Positions 9,005-23,543 of a stretch of DNA of 64,000 nt are shown one piece after another; position 1 is the stretch's first letter, and every line of letters begins with the position of its first letter. Where the stretch lies: contig NZ_CP016438.1 of NCBI RefSeq assembly GCF_001685355.1, positions 4,712,001-4,776,000 on the forward strand, read 5' to 3'. A program made the position numbers and the translations under genes. A model generated the notes under the pieces. It did no database searches. It worked only from the letters and a program-made list of their open reading frames with translations, and was not told the DNA's origin. This DNA comes from Streptomyces lincolnensis (GTDB taxonomy: Bacteria; Actinomycetota; Actinomycetes; Streptomycetales; Streptomycetaceae).

Positions 9005-9160
9005 GAGCGCCGATGGCTTCCTGAAGGTGGCTTCCTGAAGGTTTCCTGAGAGAGCCCCGCAAGCTGCGAGAAGCGTCTTTATATCGGGCGAACCAGCTTC
9101 TGCCGGGGTTCTCAGCCGGCACTCAGGGAGCTCTCATGGACGGCGGACAAGCTGTTTGCC

Positions 9161-10201
9161 ATGACCGAGAGCTTCCGCCGCGACGGCGAGTACGAGAACC
9201 CGTACCAGGGCGCCCAGCAGCACGCCTCCTCCCCCGTGAACCCGGAGTGGCCGCCCCCGCCGGTGCAGCCGCCGGCCCAGCCGACCGCCGTGCTCCCCGG
9301 GCCCGGAGCCCCCGCCCACGCTCCGAAGAAGCGCACCCGGGGCCCGCTCGCCCTCCTGGCCGCCGTGGCGATCGTCGCCGCGGCGATCGGTGGCGGCACC
9401 GCGTACGGCATCCAGGAGCTGACCGGCAACGACACGGTCGCCTCCAGCAGCACCAGCACCAACGTGGTGCCGTCCTCCGCGAAGGGCACGGTCTCCGGGG
9501 TCGCCAAGGCGGTCAGCCCGAGCATCGTCGAGATCAACGCCACCTCGAACGCGGGTGAGTCCACCGGCTCCGGCGTGATCATCACCGGCGACGGCGAGAT
9601 CATCACCAACAACCACGTCGTCTCCGGCGCCTCCACCATCAAGGTGAGCACCAGCGACGGCAAGACCTACACCGCGAAGGTCGTCGGCACCGACGCCAAG
9701 AAGGACCTCGCCCTGATCAAGCTGGAGAACGCCTCCGGTCTGACCCCGGCCACCCTCGGCAACTCCGACGGGGTGCAGGTCGGCGACGAGGTCGTGGCGA
9801 TCGGCTCCCCCGAGGGTCTGACCGGCACGGTGACCAGCGGCATCGTCTCCGCCCTGAACCGTGACGTGACCGTCTCCACGGACGAGGACCAGGGACAGCA
9901 GCAGCAACAGCAGGGGGGCGGCGGCTGGCCGTTCGAGTTCGGCGGTCAGCAGTTCAACGGCGACACCGGCTCGTCCACGACGACGTACAAGGCGCTCCAG
10001 ACGGACGCCTCGCTCAACCCCGGCAACTCCGGCGGCGCCCTGATCGACATGAACGGGAACATCATCGGCATCAACTCGGCGATGTACTCCTCCGCTGCCA
10101 GCTCCGCCGACGCGGGCAACCAGGGCCTCGGCTTCGCCATCCCGATCAACACCGTCAAGTCCGACCTGGCCACCCTGCGGGCCGGCGGTTCCGACAGCTG
10201 A
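9161..10201 (+). CDS. Membrane-anchored HtrA/DegP-type serine protease lacking a PDZ domain
   Basis: 346 residues. A Pro/Gln-rich cytoplasmic leader of about 60 residues and one transmembrane helix (about 62-80) precede a trypsin-like domain. The triad is His in ITNNHVV, Asp in KKDLALI and Ser in NPGNSGG. A Gln-rich loop (QGQQQQQQGGGG) interrupts the domain, and the protein ends soon after LGFAIPI, so the usual C-terminal PDZ is absent. It is probably an envelope stress protease; a two-component system lies just downstream. Confidence 0.9.
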   Translation: MTESFRRDGEYENPYQGAQQHASSPVNPEWPPPPVQPPAQPTAVLPGPGAPAHAPKKRTRGPLALLAAVAIVAAAIGGGTAYGIQELTGNDTVASSSTSTNVVPSSAKGTVSGVAKAVSPSIVEINATSNAGESTGSGVIITGDGEIITNNHVVSGASTIKVSTSDGKTYTAKVVGTDAKKDLALIKLENASGLTPATLGNSDGVQVGDEVVAIGSPEGLTGTVTSGIVSALNRDVTVSTDEDQGQQQQQQGGGGWPFEFGGQQFNGDTGSSTTTYKALQTDASLNPGNSGGALIDMNGNIIGINSAMYSSAASSADAGNQGLGFAIPINTVKSDLATLRAGGSDS

Positions 10202-10228
10202 CACCGGCACCCTCGTGAGGAGCACGTC

Positions 10229-10414
10229 ATGATCCAGCAGGTTTCGCACACGGTGGCCGGCGCCGGTCCGGCCGGGCTCGCCCTCGCCCTCGCGGTGGCG
10301 CACGAGCTGCACGCTCCGGCGCCGCGGGCACCCGAGGTCGCCCTCGCCACCGGGGCGGGCCGCCGCGCGACGGCCGCGGCCGCACGGCGGCGCCGCCGTG
10401 CCCTGCGCGGCTGA
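10229..10414 (+). CDS. Small Ala/Arg-rich hypothetical protein
   Basis: 61 residues, starting 28 bases after the protease stop with GAGGAG eight bases before the ATG. An Ala/Leu-rich N-terminal half ([18 protein letters not shown]) is followed by a strongly basic tail ([12 protein letters not shown]). The composition could also come by chance in such GC-rich DNA; the good ribosome site and spacing are the only support. Confidence 0.45.
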
Positions 10415-10557
10415 TCGCGACCGGTCCGAGGTCCCCCTCAGCTCCTCCCAGCTCCTCCTACAGTGCCGGCCGGGAATCATGCGAGGCTGAGAGCGTTCAA
10501 CGCCCTTTCCGCCCCTTCCGTTCCCTGTTGGCCCCCGCATCCCGAGGAACCAAGCCC

Positions 10558-11295
10558 ATGAGCTCCGCCGATGGCGACCGTGACACCCAGCGCATCCTGA
10601 TCGTCGACGACGAGCCGGCGGTGCGCGAAGCCCTCCAGCGCAGCCTCGCCTTCGAGGGCTACGACACGGAGGTCGCGGTCGACGGCGCGGACGCCCTGGA
10701 GAAGGCGGCCGCCTACCGGCCCGACCTGGTGGTCCTGGACATCCAGATGCCCCGCATGGACGGCCTGACCGCCGCCCGCCGGATCCGCGGCGCCGGCGAC
10801 ACCACGCCGATCCTGATGCTGACGGCCCGCGACACCGTCGGCGACCGGGTCACCGGGCTCGACGCGGGCGCCGACGACTACCTCGTCAAGCCGTTCGAGC
10901 TGGACGAACTCTTCGCCCGGGTCCGCGCGTTGCTGCGTCGCAGCTCCTACGCGGCGGCCTCCGGATCGAACGCCGTCGAGGACGACGAGGCCCTCACCTT
11001 CGCCGACCTGCGCATGGACCTCGCGACGCGCGAGGTCACGCGGGGCGGGCGGGCGGTGGAACTGACCCGTACGGAGTTCACGCTCCTGGAGATGTTCATG
11101 GCCCATCCGCGCCAGGTCCTCACGCGCGAGCAGATCCTGAAGGCGGTCTGGGGCTTCGACTTCGAGCCCTCGTCCAACTCCCTGGACGTCTACGTCATGT
11201 ACCTGCGCCGCAAGACCGAGGCGGGCGGCGAGCCGCGGCTCGTGCACACGGTGCGCGGGGTGGGGTATGTGCTGCGCCAAGGTGGCGCGGAGTGA
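10558..11295 (+). CDS. OmpR-family response regulator
   Basis: 245 residues. The receiver domain shows the acidic pocket DDE (about 17-19), phospho-acceptor Asp61 in [12 protein letters not shown], and Lys in YLVKPFE. The C-terminal winged helix has [44 protein letters not shown]. It is most like the MprA/CseB branch. The stop overlaps the kinase start (GTGA), so the two proteins are made together. Position after an HtrA-type protease suggests envelope-stress control, by analogy with the mycobacterial MprAB-PepD arrangement. Confidence 0.93.
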
Positions 11296-12746
11296 GGCGT
11301 GTGATGCGCCGGTACCGGTCCCTGCCGATCCGCTCCCGGCTGGCCCTCCTCGTCGCGGCGGCTGTGGCGTTCGCGGTGGCGGCGGTGTCGGTGACGTGCT
11401 GGTTCATCGTGCAGGGGAAGCTGTACGAGCAGGTCGACGCCGGTCTGAAGGACATGATGCGGCGGCCGGGCACGGCCCAGGCGCTCCTCGGGCGGTGCAC
11501 GCAGACCCCGCTGGACAACAGCCAGACCCCCCGCCGGAACGACTACGTCCAGGCGATCAAGGAGAGCGGCGCCCCCTGCGTCGACCCGACCTCGGCGGGC
11601 ACGGTCAAGGTCACCGAGGCCGACCGGGAGGTCATCAGGGGCGCGAACGCGAAGGTGGGCTTCGTCCGCAACGGCACCGACGAGAACGGCAACGCCGTCC
11701 GTGTGCTGACGCTGTACCTGGGCGTCGACACGAACGACGGGCGGGGAGTCGCCGTACTCTTCGCGACCCCCCTCAAGGGCACCCAGTCCACGCTCAACGA
11801 ACTCGCACTCATCCTCCTGCTCGTCTCCGGCGTCGGGGTCGTCGGTGCCGGTGCCGCCGGTCTCACCGTCGCCCGGGCCGGTCTGCGTCCTGTCGACAAG
11901 CTCACCGAGGCCGTCGAGCACGTGGCCCGTACCGAGGATCTGACCATTCGGATCCCGGTGGAGGAGGACAGCGACGACGAGGTCGCCCGCCTCTCCCGCT
12001 CCTTCAACTCCATGACCTCCTCCCTGGCCAGCTCCCGGGAGATGCAACAACAGCTCATCGCGGACGCCGGGCACGAGCTCCGCACGCCCCTCACCTCCCT
12101 TCGTACGAACATCGAGCTCCTCACCCGCAGCGAGGAGACGGGCCGCCCGATCCCGGAGGCGGACCGCAAGGCGCTGCTCGCCTCGGTGAAGGCGCAGATG
12201 ACCGAACTGGCGGCGCTGATCGGGGACTTGCAGGAGCTGTCCCGCTCGGAGGGACAGCGGGGTGAGCGTGTCCAGGTGATCGCGCTGGAGGACACCGTCG
12301 AGTCGGCGCTGCGCCGCGCACGGCTCCGCGGCCCCGAGCTGACCATCACCGCCGACCTCCAGCCCTGGTACGTCCGGGCGGAACCGGCCGCTCTCGAACG
12401 CGCGGTGGTCAACATCCTGGACAACGCGGTGAAGTTCAGCCCGGACGGCGGCAGCGTCGAGGTCCGGCTCGGCGAGGGTGTCCTCACGGTCCGCGACCAC
12501 GGCCCGGGCATCCCCGAGGACGAACTCCCCCACGTCTTCGACCGCTTCTGGCGCTCCCCGAGCGCCCGCGCCCTCCCCGGCTCCGGCCTCGGCCTGTCCA
12601 TCGTGGCCCGCACGGTCCAGCAGGCCGGCGGCGAGGTGACCCTGACCCGCGCCCAGGACGGCGGCACGGTGGCGACGGTACGGCTCCCGGGGGCCCCGAC
12701 ACCTCCACCGGAAGCGCCGGACACGGCTGCGGGGGGAGTTGCGTAG
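11292..12746 (+). CDS. Sensor histidine kinase (MprB-like)
   Basis: 484 residues: transmembrane helix 1 (about 15-38), an extracytoplasmic sensor of about 130 residues with two cysteines (GRCTQ, GAPCVD), helix 2 (about 172-195), HAMP, the DHp box [17 protein letters not shown] with the phospho-His, and an ATPase domain with [10 protein letters not shown] (N), VRDHGPGIP (G1), FDRFWR (F) and GSGLGLSIV (G2). The start is GTG 11292, overlapping the regulator stop. The two cysteines may form a sensor disulfide (inference). Confidence 0.93.
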
Positions 12747-19983: not shown

Positions 19984-21756
19984 TCACAGCCGGAGCACCA
20001 AGGTGTCGTCCGCGCCTGTCACCGCCGCCGGTGACGGTCCGGCCAGCCGCGCGTAAGTCCCGCCCCGCGCCACCAGTTCCGCATGCGTGCCCGTCTCCGC
20101 CAACCGTCCCCCGTCGATCACCAGGATCCGGTCCGCGTCCGGGGCCAGGGTGAGGTCGTGGGTGATCAGGAGGGTGGTGCGGCCGGAGGTGAGGTGGCGG
20201 AGGGGCTGGATGATCCGGCGGGCGGCGACGGAGTCGAGGCCTGCGGTGGGTTCGTCGAGGACGAGGACGGGGGCGGCGCGGAGGATGGCACGGGCGATGG
20301 TGAGGCGTTTGAGCTGGCCGCCGGAGAGGGCTGCCGTGCCGGGGGCGAGCGGGGTGTCGTAGCCGTCGGGGAGGGCGGTGACGAAGTCGTGGGCGGCGGC
20401 CGCGCGGGCGGCGTGTTCGATGTCCGCGTCGGAAGCGCCGGGGCGGCCGCACGCGATGTTCTCGCGGATCGTGCCGTTGAGGATCAGCGTCTCCTGGGGG
20501 AGCAGGGCGATGTTCTCGCGCAGGAAGCCGAGGCCCAGGTCGGGGAGGGGGACGCCGTCCAGCGTGATCGTGCCGAGGGAAGGGTCGTAGAAGCGGGTCA
20601 GCAGTTTCGACAGGGTCGACTTGCCGGCACCGCTCGGGCCCGTGATCAGCACCAGCTCACCGGGGGCGGCTGTGAAGGAGACGTCGTGGAGGGAGTCCCG
20701 GGGGGCGTTCGGGTAGCGGAAGGAGACTCCGTGGAAGGCGAGCCGGCCGTGCACCGGCCAGGCGGGGACCGGCCGTTCCGGGTCGGTGACCGACGGCCGC
20801 GCGTCCAGGATCTCGCCCAGGCGCCGGGCGCCCGCCGTGGCGGCGGTGAGGGTGAGGCCGAGTTGGCCGAGGCTGCGGATCGGCGGGTAGAGGTAGCCGA
20901 CGAAGGCGGCGAAGGCGAGGAGTTGGCCGAGGGTCATGCGGCCGGCGGAGATCTCCCAGACGCCGAGGCCGATGACCGTCAGGACGCAGAGCGTCTCCAC
21001 GACCTCCACGAGCTGCTCGTACATCTCGCTCAGGCGCGCTCCGCGCACGGACGCCCTCATCCAGGCGCGGGCCTCGCGGTCCAGGCGCCGCGCCTCGTCG
21101 GCGTGACGGTTGTAGGCCTGGGTGAGGACCACATGGCCCAGCGACTCCTCCACCACCGACGTGATCGCGCCGTCGGCGACCCGCTCGTCCCGTGAGGCCT
21201 CCCTGATACGGCCGGAGAAGCGGCGGGCGGCCAGGAGGAAGAGGGGCGCCAGGACGAAGGTGACCAGGGCCAGGTCCCAGCGGAGGTAGAAGGCGGCGCA
21301 GGCGTAGAAGACGGCGGAGAAGGCCGCCGAGACCGTGCCGACGACTCCCGAGACCACCATCTGTTCAATGGCCTCGACGTCTCCTGTGAGGCGTTCGACC
21401 AGGTCGCCCTGCCGGTGCTTCTGGAAGAAGTGGGGTGGGAGGTCCTGGACATGTCCGAAGACGTCCGCACGCAGGCGCAGGACGAATCTCTCCGCGGTCC
21501 AGGTGGCGAGCGAGTTGCCGAGGTAGCCGACGAGCGCGCCGAGCACGGCGACACCCAGCCAGGCGCCGGCCGGGCCCCAGAAGGCGGAGAGCGAACCGGC
21601 CCGGAGGGCGTTGTCGGTGAGTTCCGCGAACAGCAGGATCGAGGCGGTCTCGGCGAGCGCGGCCACCACCACGCACGTCACGATCACCGCCAGCCACCTG
21701 CGGTCCCCGCGGGTCAGCGGCCAGAAACGGCGGAAGGCCTCACGGACTTCCCTCAT
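19984..21756 (-). CDS. ABC exporter, fused membrane and ATPase domains
   Basis: 590 residues from ATG 21756 (GGGAG upstream). A six-helix exporter domain (about 1-310) precedes an ATPase with Walker A GPSGAGKS, Q-loop LLPQE, signature LSGGQ and Walker B VLVLDEPTAGLD. It is a type IV (MsbA-like) half-transporter, expected to act as a homodimer. There is no N-terminal peptidase domain, so it would not cleave double-glycine leaders. It lies directly downstream of two tandem micropeptide genes on the same strand, making those peptides plausible substrates. Confidence 0.92.
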   Translation of the reverse strand: MREVREAFRRFWPLTRGDRRWLAVIVTCVVVAALAETASILLFAELTDNALRAGSLSAFWGPAGAWLGVAVLGALVGYLGNSLATWTAERFVLRLRADVFGHVQDLPPHFFQKHRQGDLVERLTGDVEAIEQMVVSGVVGTVSAAFSAVFYACAAFYLRWDLALVTFVLAPLFLLAARRFSGRIREASRDERVADGAITSVVEESLGHVVLTQAYNRHADEARRLDREARAWMRASVRGARLSEMYEQLVEVVETLCVLTVIGLGVWEISAGRMTLGQLLAFAAFVGYLYPPIRSLGQLGLTLTAATAGARRLGEILDARPSVTDPERPVPAWPVHGRLAFHGVSFRYPNAPRDSLHDVSFTAAPGELVLITGPSGAGKSTLSKLLTRFYDPSLGTITLDGVPLPDLGLGFLRENIALLPQETLILNGTIRENIACGRPGASDADIEHAARAAAAHDFVTALPDGYDTPLAPGTAALSGGQLKRLTIARAILRAAPVLVLDEPTAGLDSVAARRIIQPLRHLTSGRTTLLITHDLTLAPDADRILVIDGGRLAETGTHAELVARGGTYARLAGPSPAAVTGADDTLVLRL

Positions 21757-21886
21757 GTCAGCAACTCCCTTTGTTTCCCGCTGTTTCCTGCGGACATGTG
21801 CTCCGGACATGGCCGAGGCGGGGCCCCGGTCGGCGAGTCTGTGAACGACCCGCTGACCGACGACCCCGCCTCGTGGCGTCCCCGCC

Positions 21887-22006
21887 TCAGCCCTGGTGCG
21901 CGACCGGACGGCGCTTCGGCGCGGCCTTCTTCGGAGCGGGCTTCTTGCAGGCCGGGGCGGCGGGCTTGTGGCTCTTCTTCACGGGGGCGATCTTACGGAA
22001 GCTCAT
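21887..22006 (-). CDS. Lys/Pro-rich cationic micropeptide B (39 aa)
   Basis: Starts MSFRKIAPVKK, has a variable Ala/Pro/Lys centre with one Cys (PACKKPAPKK), and ends KAAPKRRPVAHQG. It contains nine Lys and three Arg and no acidic residue. ATG 22006 is chosen because AAGGGA lies seven bases upstream; an ATG at 22012 is too close to it. It is paralogous to the gene 86 bases upstream, sharing the MSFxKIAPVKK start and the KKAAPKRRPV end. The exporter start follows after 130 bases. Confidence 0.75.
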   Translation of the reverse strand: MSFRKIAPVKKSHKPAAPACKKPAPKKAAPKRRPVAHQG

Positions 22007-22092
22007 GTCCATATCCCTTGCAGACAGCTGTGAATTGCTTTGAGCAGATTGAGTTGCTCAGGTTTCTCTGAATTACTTCGGCGAATTCTTTG

Positions 22093-22209
22093 TCAGCCCT
22101 TGCGGCCGACCGGGCGACGCTTCGGCGCGGCCTTCTTCGACTGGTGCTTCTTGGGGGCCGGGGCGGGCTTGCGGGCCTTCTTCACCGGGGCGATCTTGTG
22201 GAAGCTCAT
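22093..22209 (-). CDS. Lys/Pro-rich cationic micropeptide A (38 aa)
   Basis: Starts MSFHKIAPVKK, has the centre ARKPAPAPKKHQS, and ends KKAAPKRRPVGRKG. It contains ten Lys and four Arg, no Asp or Glu, and one aromatic residue. AAAGGAG sits six bases before the ATG, among the best ribosome sites in the window. Flanking DNA is unusually AT-rich for the genome (28 of 60 bases are G or C at 22261-22320; 26 of 60 at 22021-22080). No leader motif or membrane segment is visible. Function is unknown: export signal, antimicrobial or nucleic-acid/polyP binding are all open. Confidence 0.78.
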   Translation of the reverse strand: MSFHKIAPVKKARKPAPAPKKHQSKKAAPKRRPVGRKG

Positions 22210-22352
22210 CGTGTTCTCCTTTGCGTCTGCGTCGTTCGCGCCGTTCGCTTTCGACATGGAAAACACTACGGCATTTCCGCAGCCAAAAAGGCCGATAGAC
22301 CTGAGACCTCAATAAGATTCGATGTGAATTCCCTCGGGGATAAACACAGAAT

Positions 22353-23543
22353 TTATGAGCCGACGGCCAGGCCCGAGCCCGCGATCCGTACGCGGATGCC
22401 GTCCTGTGCCACGCGTACGTCCCGCAGCCGCAGGTCCCCGCGTTCCGGCTCGGGCAGCCGGAAGCCCAGGGAGAGTCGGTCGGCGAGGACCGGGCGGGTC
22501 AGGCGGGGCAGGGCGTCGAGGAGGGCGGGGTCGAAGCCGAGCCGCTGGAGCAACTCCGGGTTCTCCAGGGCGAGATCGACGAGGTTGAGGCCCATGGCCT
22601 GGCGTACGAAGTCGGGGCGGCCGGTCAGCTTGGACAGTGCCGCCTCGGAGTTCAGCGCGTCGCGCACGGTGGCGTCGGGCACGCCCAGCGCCCGCACCAC
22701 CGACGGCACCGCCAGCAACGCCCTCGCCTTGCGCGTCTCACGGCTCAGCGCGGTGGCGGACTCACGGGTGAGATGCAGCCCCTCGGAGGCACCGCTGCCC
22801 GGGCGGTAGGTCGCCAGGTCCCCGATGTCCAGGCGCATTCCGCCGACCTCGGTGTCGATGCCCCGGTCACCGTCCCGCCGGATGCGCGCGTCGGCCCGCA
22901 GCCGCAGATCGTGCCCGGCGACGGGCAGGGTGCCCCGGGCCAGGATCCGGTCCCGGCCGTCCTCGCTGAACGTCACCTGGGAGGCACCGAGTTCACGGTT
23001 CAGATCGTCGAAGGAGAGGAGGACGTCACCGTCGACGCCTCGGATGTCCGCTCCCCGTATGTCGGTCAGCCCGTCCGCGTCCAGCCGGATGTCGCGGGCG
23101 GTGGCCGAGACCCGGGCCAGCGAGATCCGGTCGGCGGCGACGTCCGGGACGGTGACCCGCACCGAGTCCAGCCGCTTGTCGGCGACCTGGGTGAGGAAGG
23201 GGAAGCCGCCGATCTCCACCTCGGGCGCGGCGCTCAGCTTCAGCCGGTCCTCCAGCGCGTCCGAGGCCCGGTGCTCGGCGTAGAGCACGGCCCAGCGGTC
23301 GGCGAGAACGAGGAAGGCGGTCAGGGCGACGAGGCCGCAGACCGCCTTCAGTGCGAACGGGAGCCCGGCGAACCGCCCCCGTCCCCGCCGTCGCCGACGG
23401 CCACTGCGGCCGTGGTGGGGCGGGGACCAGGGATCGTCCTCAACGGACTCCTGGATCTCCTGGGGTCCTTCGGGCTCCCAGGAGCCCAGCTCCTCGTACG
23501 GATTCGTACTGCCCTGCGTCGGTATGTGGTGGGGGGAACGCAT
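22353..23543 (-). CDS. DUF2993 membrane-anchored protein, long form
   Basis: 396 residues. A cytoplasmic leader ends in GRSGRRRRRGRGR. One helix (about 65-85) leads into the DUF2993 pattern YAEHRASDALEDRL ... VEIGGFPFLTQVADKRLDSV. A second, helix-containing half (GLHLTRESATALSRETRK onwards, about 260-350) is absent from the short paralogue at 1762-2487. It probably binds lipid at the outer face of the membrane. It is upstream of, and on the same strand as, the micropeptide genes, separated by an AT-rich gap. Confidence 0.83.
   Translation of the reverse strand: MRSPHHIPTQGSTNPYEELGSWEPEGPQEIQESVEDDPWSPPHHGRSGRRRRRGRGRFAGLPFALKAVCGLVALTAFLVLADRWAVLYAEHRASDALEDRLKLSAAPEVEIGGFPFLTQVADKRLDSVRVTVPDVAADRISLARVSATARDIRLDADGLTDIRGADIRGVDGDVLLSFDDLNRELGASQVTFSEDGRDRILARGTLPVAGHDLRLRADARIRRDGDRGIDTEVGGMRLDIGDLATYRPGSGASEGLHLTRESATALSRETRKARALLAVPSVVRALGVPDATVRDALNSEAALSKLTGRPDFVRQAMGLNLVDLALENPELLQRLGFDPALLDALPRLTRPVLADRLSLGFRLPEPERGDLRLRDVRVAQDGIRVRIAGSGLAVGS

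Follow-up and report, generated by a model that had tools for sequence, protein, structure and literature searches.

The window analysed here, a 64,000-nt stretch of Streptomyces lincolnensis DNA (NZ_CP016438.1, positions 4,712,001 to 4,776,000), carries two tandem micropeptide genes followed on the same strand by an ABC exporter gene. We propose, with moderate confidence and from comparative sequence analysis, that they form a type A, two-copy member of an actinobacterial module in which a leaderless micropeptide of biased composition would be exported by a cognate single-chain ABC exporter. The data directly support selection on the reading frames, constant linkage of peptide and exporter, co-inheritance with exporter clades, a hairpin behind the peptide genes and tandem amplification within type A.

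The peptide-exporter locus in the window

The elements of the locus are listed in Table 1. On the minus strand, the transcript order is a GC-poor stretch, micropeptide 1, an 86-nt spacer, micropeptide 2, a hairpin and the exporter, and the GC content near the peptides drops to 0.55-0.63 versus roughly 0.65-0.75 in the neighbourhood. Both peptides begin with MSFxKIAPVKK and end with KKAAPKRRPV, contain neither Asp nor Glu, and carry 14 (38-aa peptide) or 12 (39-aa peptide) Lys/Arg residues. The first-pass annotation, which had described a tandem Lys/Pro-rich pair with common ends and no acidic residue, a ribosome site for each ORF, AT-rich surroundings and a fused same-strand exporter lacking a peptidase domain, is borne out on all these points. 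At 74% identity (E 2.6e-7) the peptides are paralogous, and a search of their own genome returned the two copies at E 6e-18 and 3e-7, with the next match at E 1.6. No Pfam or NCBIfam model matched them; they have no signal peptide, reading of their sequences revealed no leader ending in GG, GA or GS, and no maturation enzyme was observed alongside.

Table 1. Elements of the peptide-exporter locus (window coordinates).
Element	Position	Strand	Comment
Micropeptide 1, 38 aa, type A	22093..22209 (incl. stop)	-	MSFHKIAPVKKARKPAPAPKKHQSKKAAPKRRPVGRKG
Micropeptide 2, 39 aa, type A	21887..22006 (incl. stop)	-	MSFRKIAPVKKSHKPAAPACKKPAPKKAAPKRRPVAHQG
GGAG, SD-like, micropeptide 1	22216..22219	-	precedes ATG
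AAGGGA, SD-like, micropeptide 2	22014..22019	-	precedes ATG
TAGTGT, -10-like hexamer	22263..22268	-	lies in sequence conserved between type A loci; putative promoter
Strong hairpin, 60 nt, near-perfect	21814..21873	-	micropeptide 2/exporter gap; terminator- or attenuation-like
ABC exporter, TMD fused to NBD	19984..21756	-	PF00664 + PF00005

An in-frame GTG would give a 57-aa form of micropeptide 1 (22093-22266, minus strand), and some database relatives (P0003 and P0005) are annotated with N-terminal extensions like this form. A conserved ATGTCG stretch also follows the -10-like TAGTGT (window 22252-22268, minus strand), as it does in upstream regions of types A-C defined below; it is in frame with the first peptide in part of the loci and may mark a leaderless start, an upstream small ORF or simply the point where transcription begins.

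The exporter is a TMD-NBD half-transporter of the MsbA/Sav1866 type with intact ATPase motifs, the SGAGKST, LSGGQ and DEPT columns being invariant in an alignment of 12 exporter sequences, and it groups by sequence with P-glycoprotein, MsbA and Sav1866. The Pfam scan lists ABC_membrane and ABC_tran only, with no peptidase C39 domain. The protein scores 412.7 bits against the MsbA equivalog cut-off of 602 bits and stays below the curated cut-off of each of the best 25 of 186 NCBIfam families. Four PADLOC models match its ATPase part (best mad3, E 1e-28); we took these matches as generic and rejected an anti-phage system, and no PADLOC model matched the peptides. A plasmid-borne module was likewise set aside, with 0 matches among 72,556 plasmid records at E 1e-120.

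Linkage of composition-biased micropeptides with one exporter clade

When the second peptide, read as 41 aa, was searched against the database, 12 proteins matched at E<=1: the window's own (P0001) and 11 others. The named relatives are each a 'hypothetical protein', and every organism named is a Streptomyces. At E<=0.01, a peptide match was present in 15 of 121 Streptomyces genomes, own included. Among the other 14, the exporter lies immediately downstream on the same strand in 13, including one genome (G014) in which it does so although the remaining neighbourhood differs; the last match (G061, E 0.005), with neither the exporter nor the shared neighbourhood, was counted as spurious. Genuine peptides are thus present in 14 of 121 genomes, own included, in 1-5 copies and with the exporter directly downstream in 14/14, and exporters of at least 79% identity occur within this sample in exactly these 13 genomes and our own. 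The next exporters (66-76% and about 49% identity), encoded elsewhere on the chromosome, are preceded by other short ORFs with similar starts. Homologues of the peptides therefore exist, and every genuine one examined adjoins an exporter of the same clade, so that two outcomes named by the first-pass annotation as refuting it, a lack of homologues elsewhere and homologues never near an ABC exporter, did not occur.

The exporter clade was then followed in 392 Streptomyces genomes (104 with the exporter at E<=1e-120) and 197 genomes of the order (47 with the exporter), with 60 more regions fetched from both samples, a part of the matched places. Leaving out duplicates, loci with less than 250 nt upstream and alignments starting after exporter residue 60, we retained 140 exporter loci (46-100% identity), among which two come from different families within the order. 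An upstream micropeptide was assigned at 140/140 loci by a regular expression, a composition rule and inspection by eye; the regular expression truly matches 105 of the 140 peptides and the composition rule gives 137, the remaining three (L077, L090 and L211) relying on the regular expression. Six ApbE-like gene fragments (regular expression) and two other ORFs (composition rule) were removed by eye as false extras.

These peptides share an N-terminus in which hydrophobic residues precede a Pro near residue 8, found in 131/140 by a relaxed motif. The tail is compositionally biased in every case, the bias varying by exporter clade between Lys/Pro, poly-Pro, Arg/Gly/Tyr, His/Asp/Gly, Arg/Ser and Cys/Trp/Arg. 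We distinguished six types: A (Lys/Pro/Ala tails, 50 loci), B (Lys/Pro, 11), C (Pro/Lys, 28), D (Pro/Arg, 3), E (Gly/Arg, 22) and F (mostly His/Gly/Arg/Asp, 26), A and F being typed by exporter identity and B-E by peptide sequence, with F taking in two odd members (L170 and L171). At least two peptide copies, and up to five, are present in 26/50 type A loci, no Trp occurs in the listed peptides of types A-C, and the net charge of type F ranges from -10 to +15. The central pattern is thus a constant N-terminus with an interchangeable tail, nine of the 140 N-termini lacking the relaxed motif. The earlier description of constrained ends around a variable centre holds within type A but not family-wide, where the N-terminus alone is constrained.

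We compared these loci with other ABC exporters by means of a motif-blind detector that uses length, SD and low complexity only. It passed 121/140 family loci versus 0/29 other ABC exporters of the same genome (30 of 31 ABC_membrane matches minus the window's own, with control spans that take in some exporter codons) and 1/76 exporters from diverse bacteria. The latter derive from 78 loci of an 80-locus contig scan on generic ABC motifs, two of which were too short; the other two scan loci turned out to be members of the family, in S. minutiscleroticus (L249) and Nonomuraea rhizosphaerae (L250), the type A peptide of the former being found by eye after the detector had missed it. With looser settings it passed 129/140 family loci alongside 1/29 and 3/78 controls, or 130/140 alongside 1/29 and 5/78, where the counts over 78 include 10 loci with a wrong exporter start. 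Motif ORFs were absent upstream of all 29 own-genome controls and appeared in 7/1550 shuffled upstream sequences. Note that the regular expressions and the detector were designed after inspection of the Streptomyces loci.

The reading frames are under selection. In type A, pN/pS is 0.31 over codons 1-10 and 0.56 over the tail; across close pairs of types A, B, C, E and F, the N-terminal ten codons give 0.23-0.34, or 0.61 for type C, and the tail gives 0.43-0.62, hence values below 1 for both parts in the five types tested. The tails contain 2% of the residues AVLIMC in types E and F and 12-24% in types A-D, versus 41% in the exporters. Own-genome paralogy, the shuffles, the motif-blind controls, pN/pS and the relatives elsewhere together led us to reject a chance ORF.

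Peptide and exporter are inherited together. In a tree of 193 exporter sequences, all 148 family members fall in one clade with support 1.0, which contains none of the controls. Each of types A-E is monophyletic (support for B is only 0.50), and F as typed is not. The neighbouring genes differ by clade (5'-nucleotidase and LmeA, FemAB-like, MacB-like, two-component, ECF sigma factor or Ser/Thr kinase genes), the window module itself lying downstream of an LmeA-like protein gene (22353-23543) and a 5'-nucleotidase gene. Only peptide and exporter are constant across the sampled loci, for which some neighbours were annotated and many flanks span 1.5 kb, and among these partly annotated neighbours we saw no immunity, maturation or peptidase gene travelling with the pair. 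At some type F loci (L173, L175, L176, L188 and others), the exporter is followed in the same orientation by a gene for a Pfam Ser/Thr protein kinase of ~310 aa. At type C loci such as L199, L079 and L084, the peptide is often preceded by a FemAB-like gene, and a putative EamA-like transporter gene, recognized by reading of the sequence, lies downstream of the exporter.

The module extends beyond Streptomyces. In a sample of the class, an order-level exporter has a match at E<=1e-140 in 16/394 genomes; eight of the 16 belong to other families, and six of these eight have a same-strand upstream micropeptide (L234, L235, L240, L242, L243 and L244). L244 probably has two, with ORFs at about -710 and -290 as counted from the exporter match; these peptides are Trp/Asp/Tyr/Cys-rich and acidic-looking, a charge opposite to that of the window peptides. 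The two other loci differ in layout: L233 probably has a divergent 55-aa peptide (L233:1113-1280, minus strand, SD AAGGGA), and L245 a probable peptide some 165 nt past the stop codon of the exporter. Both layouts are single loci, read by eye or by a lax scan that gave chance hits elsewhere, none of them as free of hydrophobic residues as the L245 peptide.

Two families were followed further. In family f28, the exporter is present in 15/149 genomes and a peptide at 16/16 loci (14 by scan and two, L332 and L335, by eye), mostly of the kind MARSSIFSALQPARMARRGD...RRRRRNRSRSRSRG. In family f19, 45/200 genomes match the exporter, and the strict detector passes 26/29 loci returned with flanks, or 25/28 among the new ones, one locus (L347) coming from the genome already read as L242. 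At two more loci (L355 and L358) a shorter peptide is clearly present, and L374, one of the 29, has no convincing one. Many f19 N-termini read MTFNKVFP or MSLNKIFP, and the tails are Cys/Gly/Trp/Arg-rich, often with WWW at the end, some being Arg/Trp-rich.

Hairpin, gene order and the role of the peptide

A hairpin with z<-2 follows the last peptide at 50/50 loci in type A, 9/11 in B, 28/28 in C, 3/3 in D, 15/22 in E and 18/26 in F, or 123/140 overall as summed from these fractions, and at 28/29 f19 and 12/14 f28 loci (L374, L332 and L335 left out). It starts at a median of 10-17 nt past the last peptide stop; in the window, the 75 nt after the micropeptide 2 stop give z -8.0. Inner spacers of tandem arrays reach z<-2 in only 3/39 cases. 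In type A the exporter starts at a median of 43 nt (23-140) past the hairpin. A separate promoter would hardly fit into this gap, so exporter expression is likely to depend on read-through.

A regulatory leader peptide would show the same layout, an ABC exporter preceded by a small ORF and then a terminator-like hairpin, with ribosome slowing or stalling altering termination at the hairpin and switching the exporter on. Runs of Pro, Lys and Arg codons could slow ribosomes, and we take the MAIF.. N-termini of some peptides to resemble ErmCL, which would fit such a role. There is a published precedent at a multidrug ABC exporter, BmrB for bmrCD of Bacillus subtilis, which shares with our loci the small ORF directly upstream and the stem-loop between its start and the exporter; the bmrB terminator lies inside the ORF and is under translation control (PMC4191407). 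An upstream ORF in cis is present in the window and at the 140 loci, but probably not in L233 and L245, where a divergent or downstream peptide could not be a cis leader. Unlike in bmrB (PMC4191407), the hairpin here lies past the stop codon, and tandem copies occur without hairpins of their own. Pairing of the ORF with the 5' arm of the hairpin was, moreover, no better than in synonymous shuffles at 138 loci, for which ORF-to-5'-arm duplexes were scored: the median z ranges from -0.97 (type B) to 0.59, and z<-2 occurs in 1/10 B, 1/26 F and 0/102 other loci. Selection against hydrophobic residues along the tail is a further point against a leader. As a general function, an attenuator is therefore disfavoured by the lack of an antiterminator signal, the few hairpins between copies and the L233 and L245 layouts, least so for type B, and we regard a regulatory leader as unlikely. 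The null pairing, the tandem type A copies and the probable divergent and downstream layouts favour a peptide product instead.

Such a product might stay in the cell as a small accessory or regulatory subunit whose hydrophobic N-terminus docks on the exporter or the membrane and tunes the transport of other substrates. The constant pairing with one exporter clade and the conserved N-terminus are compatible with this, and one may speculate that the peptide mimics the N-terminal F-R-R-F-W-P stretch of the exporter. The apparent layout for excess, with up to five copies, speaks against a subunit, as does the wide variation of tail composition while the exporters remain about 45-85% identical, and we hold this explanation to be quite improbable. 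As an observation in its own right, a conserved F-R-R-F-W-P stretch starts the exporters (alignment A1) and resembles the peptide N-terminus (e.g. SFRKVFPRR); mimicry and chance are both possible. An intracellular basic protein binding nucleic acids or ribosomes, with the exporter nearby for unrelated reasons, would fit the KKAAPKK stretches of type A, which presumably resemble histone H1-like tails. The tails of other clades are, however, Pro-rich, Gly/Tyr-rich, His/Asp-rich or acidic, and in several chromosomal contexts only peptide and exporter remain together, which makes this reading very improbable indeed.

Under the preferred reading of an exported peptide, the peptide gene or genes would come first in the transcript and the terminator-like hairpin behind the last would stop most transcripts, the layout suggesting peptide in excess and exporter from read-through. 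The conserved N-terminus (M, a small residue, hydrophobic residues and Pro near residue 8) would be the likely segment recognized by the exporter, the peptide its cargo, moved outside by the cognate exporter, and the hydrophilic low-complexity tail the delivered part, which may act outside as an antimicrobial-like or envelope-protective agent. The tails are so diverse that a common target is hard to name. Neither type F nor L244 is consistently cationic, which counts against this reading. Further points against it are the ordinary MsbA/P-gp-like sequence of the exporter, the lack of a co-travelling immunity, maturation or peptidase gene among the neighbours seen, the nine N-termini outside the relaxed motif and the f19 locus L374.

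Regulation, relation to known systems and significance

In type F, the pattern [GC][CA]ATC-N17 or N18-CGTA is found 31-48 nt before the peptide ATG at 23/26 loci, versus 0/111 of the others, with a pattern chosen post hoc on type F sequences already seen; L184, L189 and L177 are examples with N17. The [GC][CA]ATC pattern also occurs upstream of 7/14 adjacent ECF sigma genes (including those in L172, L174 and L177), and the type F module may be part of the regulon of the adjacent ECF sigma factor. A GGAA-N-CGTA promoter was rejected for type F (0/26). The [GC][CA]ATC-N-CGTA pattern may resemble SigK promoters.

In the window, a trypsin-like protease, a response regulator and a histidine kinase are encoded at 9161-12743. 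These genes look like htrB-cssRS, a secretion-stress operon according to PMC12802291, and the CutR motif TAWATAAA given there was not evident by eye at type A promoters. The hexamer CTCAGG is enriched upstream of types A (0.59 versus 0.11 expected) and C (1.29 versus 0.20) and not upstream of types B, E and F; CTCAGG/TCTCA repeats are also seen in the window at 9005-9160, upstream of the htrB-like protease gene, and at about 22300, near the putative peptide promoter. Together, these sequence features are suggestive hints of an envelope-stress control of the module.

Leaderless bacteriocins are among the closest known systems. As described in PMC11580447, the aureocin A53-like bacteriocins are short unprocessed peptides, sometimes several per operon, encoded near ABC transporter genes; they are cationic, contain Trp, count about 50 residues and share a tertiary structure. 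Short peptides, several copies and a nearby ABC transporter gene are found here too, whereas the type A-F tails are low-complexity, hydrophilic and without a common sequence family. Types A-F do not fit the aureocin A53-like make-up (cationic with several Trp). The module would thus work like a leaderless peptide with a cognate exporter, and would be placed with the leaderless bacteriocins by likeness only. Double-glycine/PCAT systems also have a short peptide beside an ABC exporter, but no C39 domain is listed for the exporter here and the window peptides lack a GG-type leader. For the idea of a bacteriocin, signalling or cationic-peptide system raised by the first-pass annotation, the link to the exporter stands, while cationic charge as a general property does not, in view of the His/Asp-rich tails of type F and the Asp/Trp/Cys-rich tail of L244; on sequence grounds the product could be a bacteriocin, a signal or another exported peptide.

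Going further, we consider it possible, though doubtful, that the module represents a new class of ribosomally made secreted peptides in Actinobacteria in which composition, not sequence, sets function, with a constant N-terminal export segment, interchangeable tails and one exporter clade. Each tail type presumably resembles a class of animal host-defence peptides (Pro-rich, His-rich, Gly-rich or Arg/Trp-rich), and the peptides could be bacterial counterparts of such composition-biased molecules, from which they differ in being bacterial and of one family, with a common N-terminus and exporter. Alternatively, they could be disordered extracytoplasmic shield peptides under envelope-stress control, an option that stems from the ECF-like promoter of type F and the htrB-cssRS-like neighbourhood of types A and B. 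In full-text open-licence PMC papers, which provide weak evidence of novelty, we found no description of this peptide-exporter pair and no match to literal peptide fragments.

Overall, the first-pass annotation underrated both the strength of the exporter link and the breadth of the peptide class. Annotation mostly misses this class, given that no Pfam or NCBIfam model matches the window peptides and that their named relatives are filed as hypothetical proteins. For an exporter that would otherwise be classed as MsbA- or multidrug-like, the module suggests a concrete candidate cargo, and its variants form an evolutionary series in which recognition of an unmodified peptide by an ABC exporter could be studied. 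It may also supply peptides with antimicrobial or envelope activity, in the genus that is the main producer of antibiotics.
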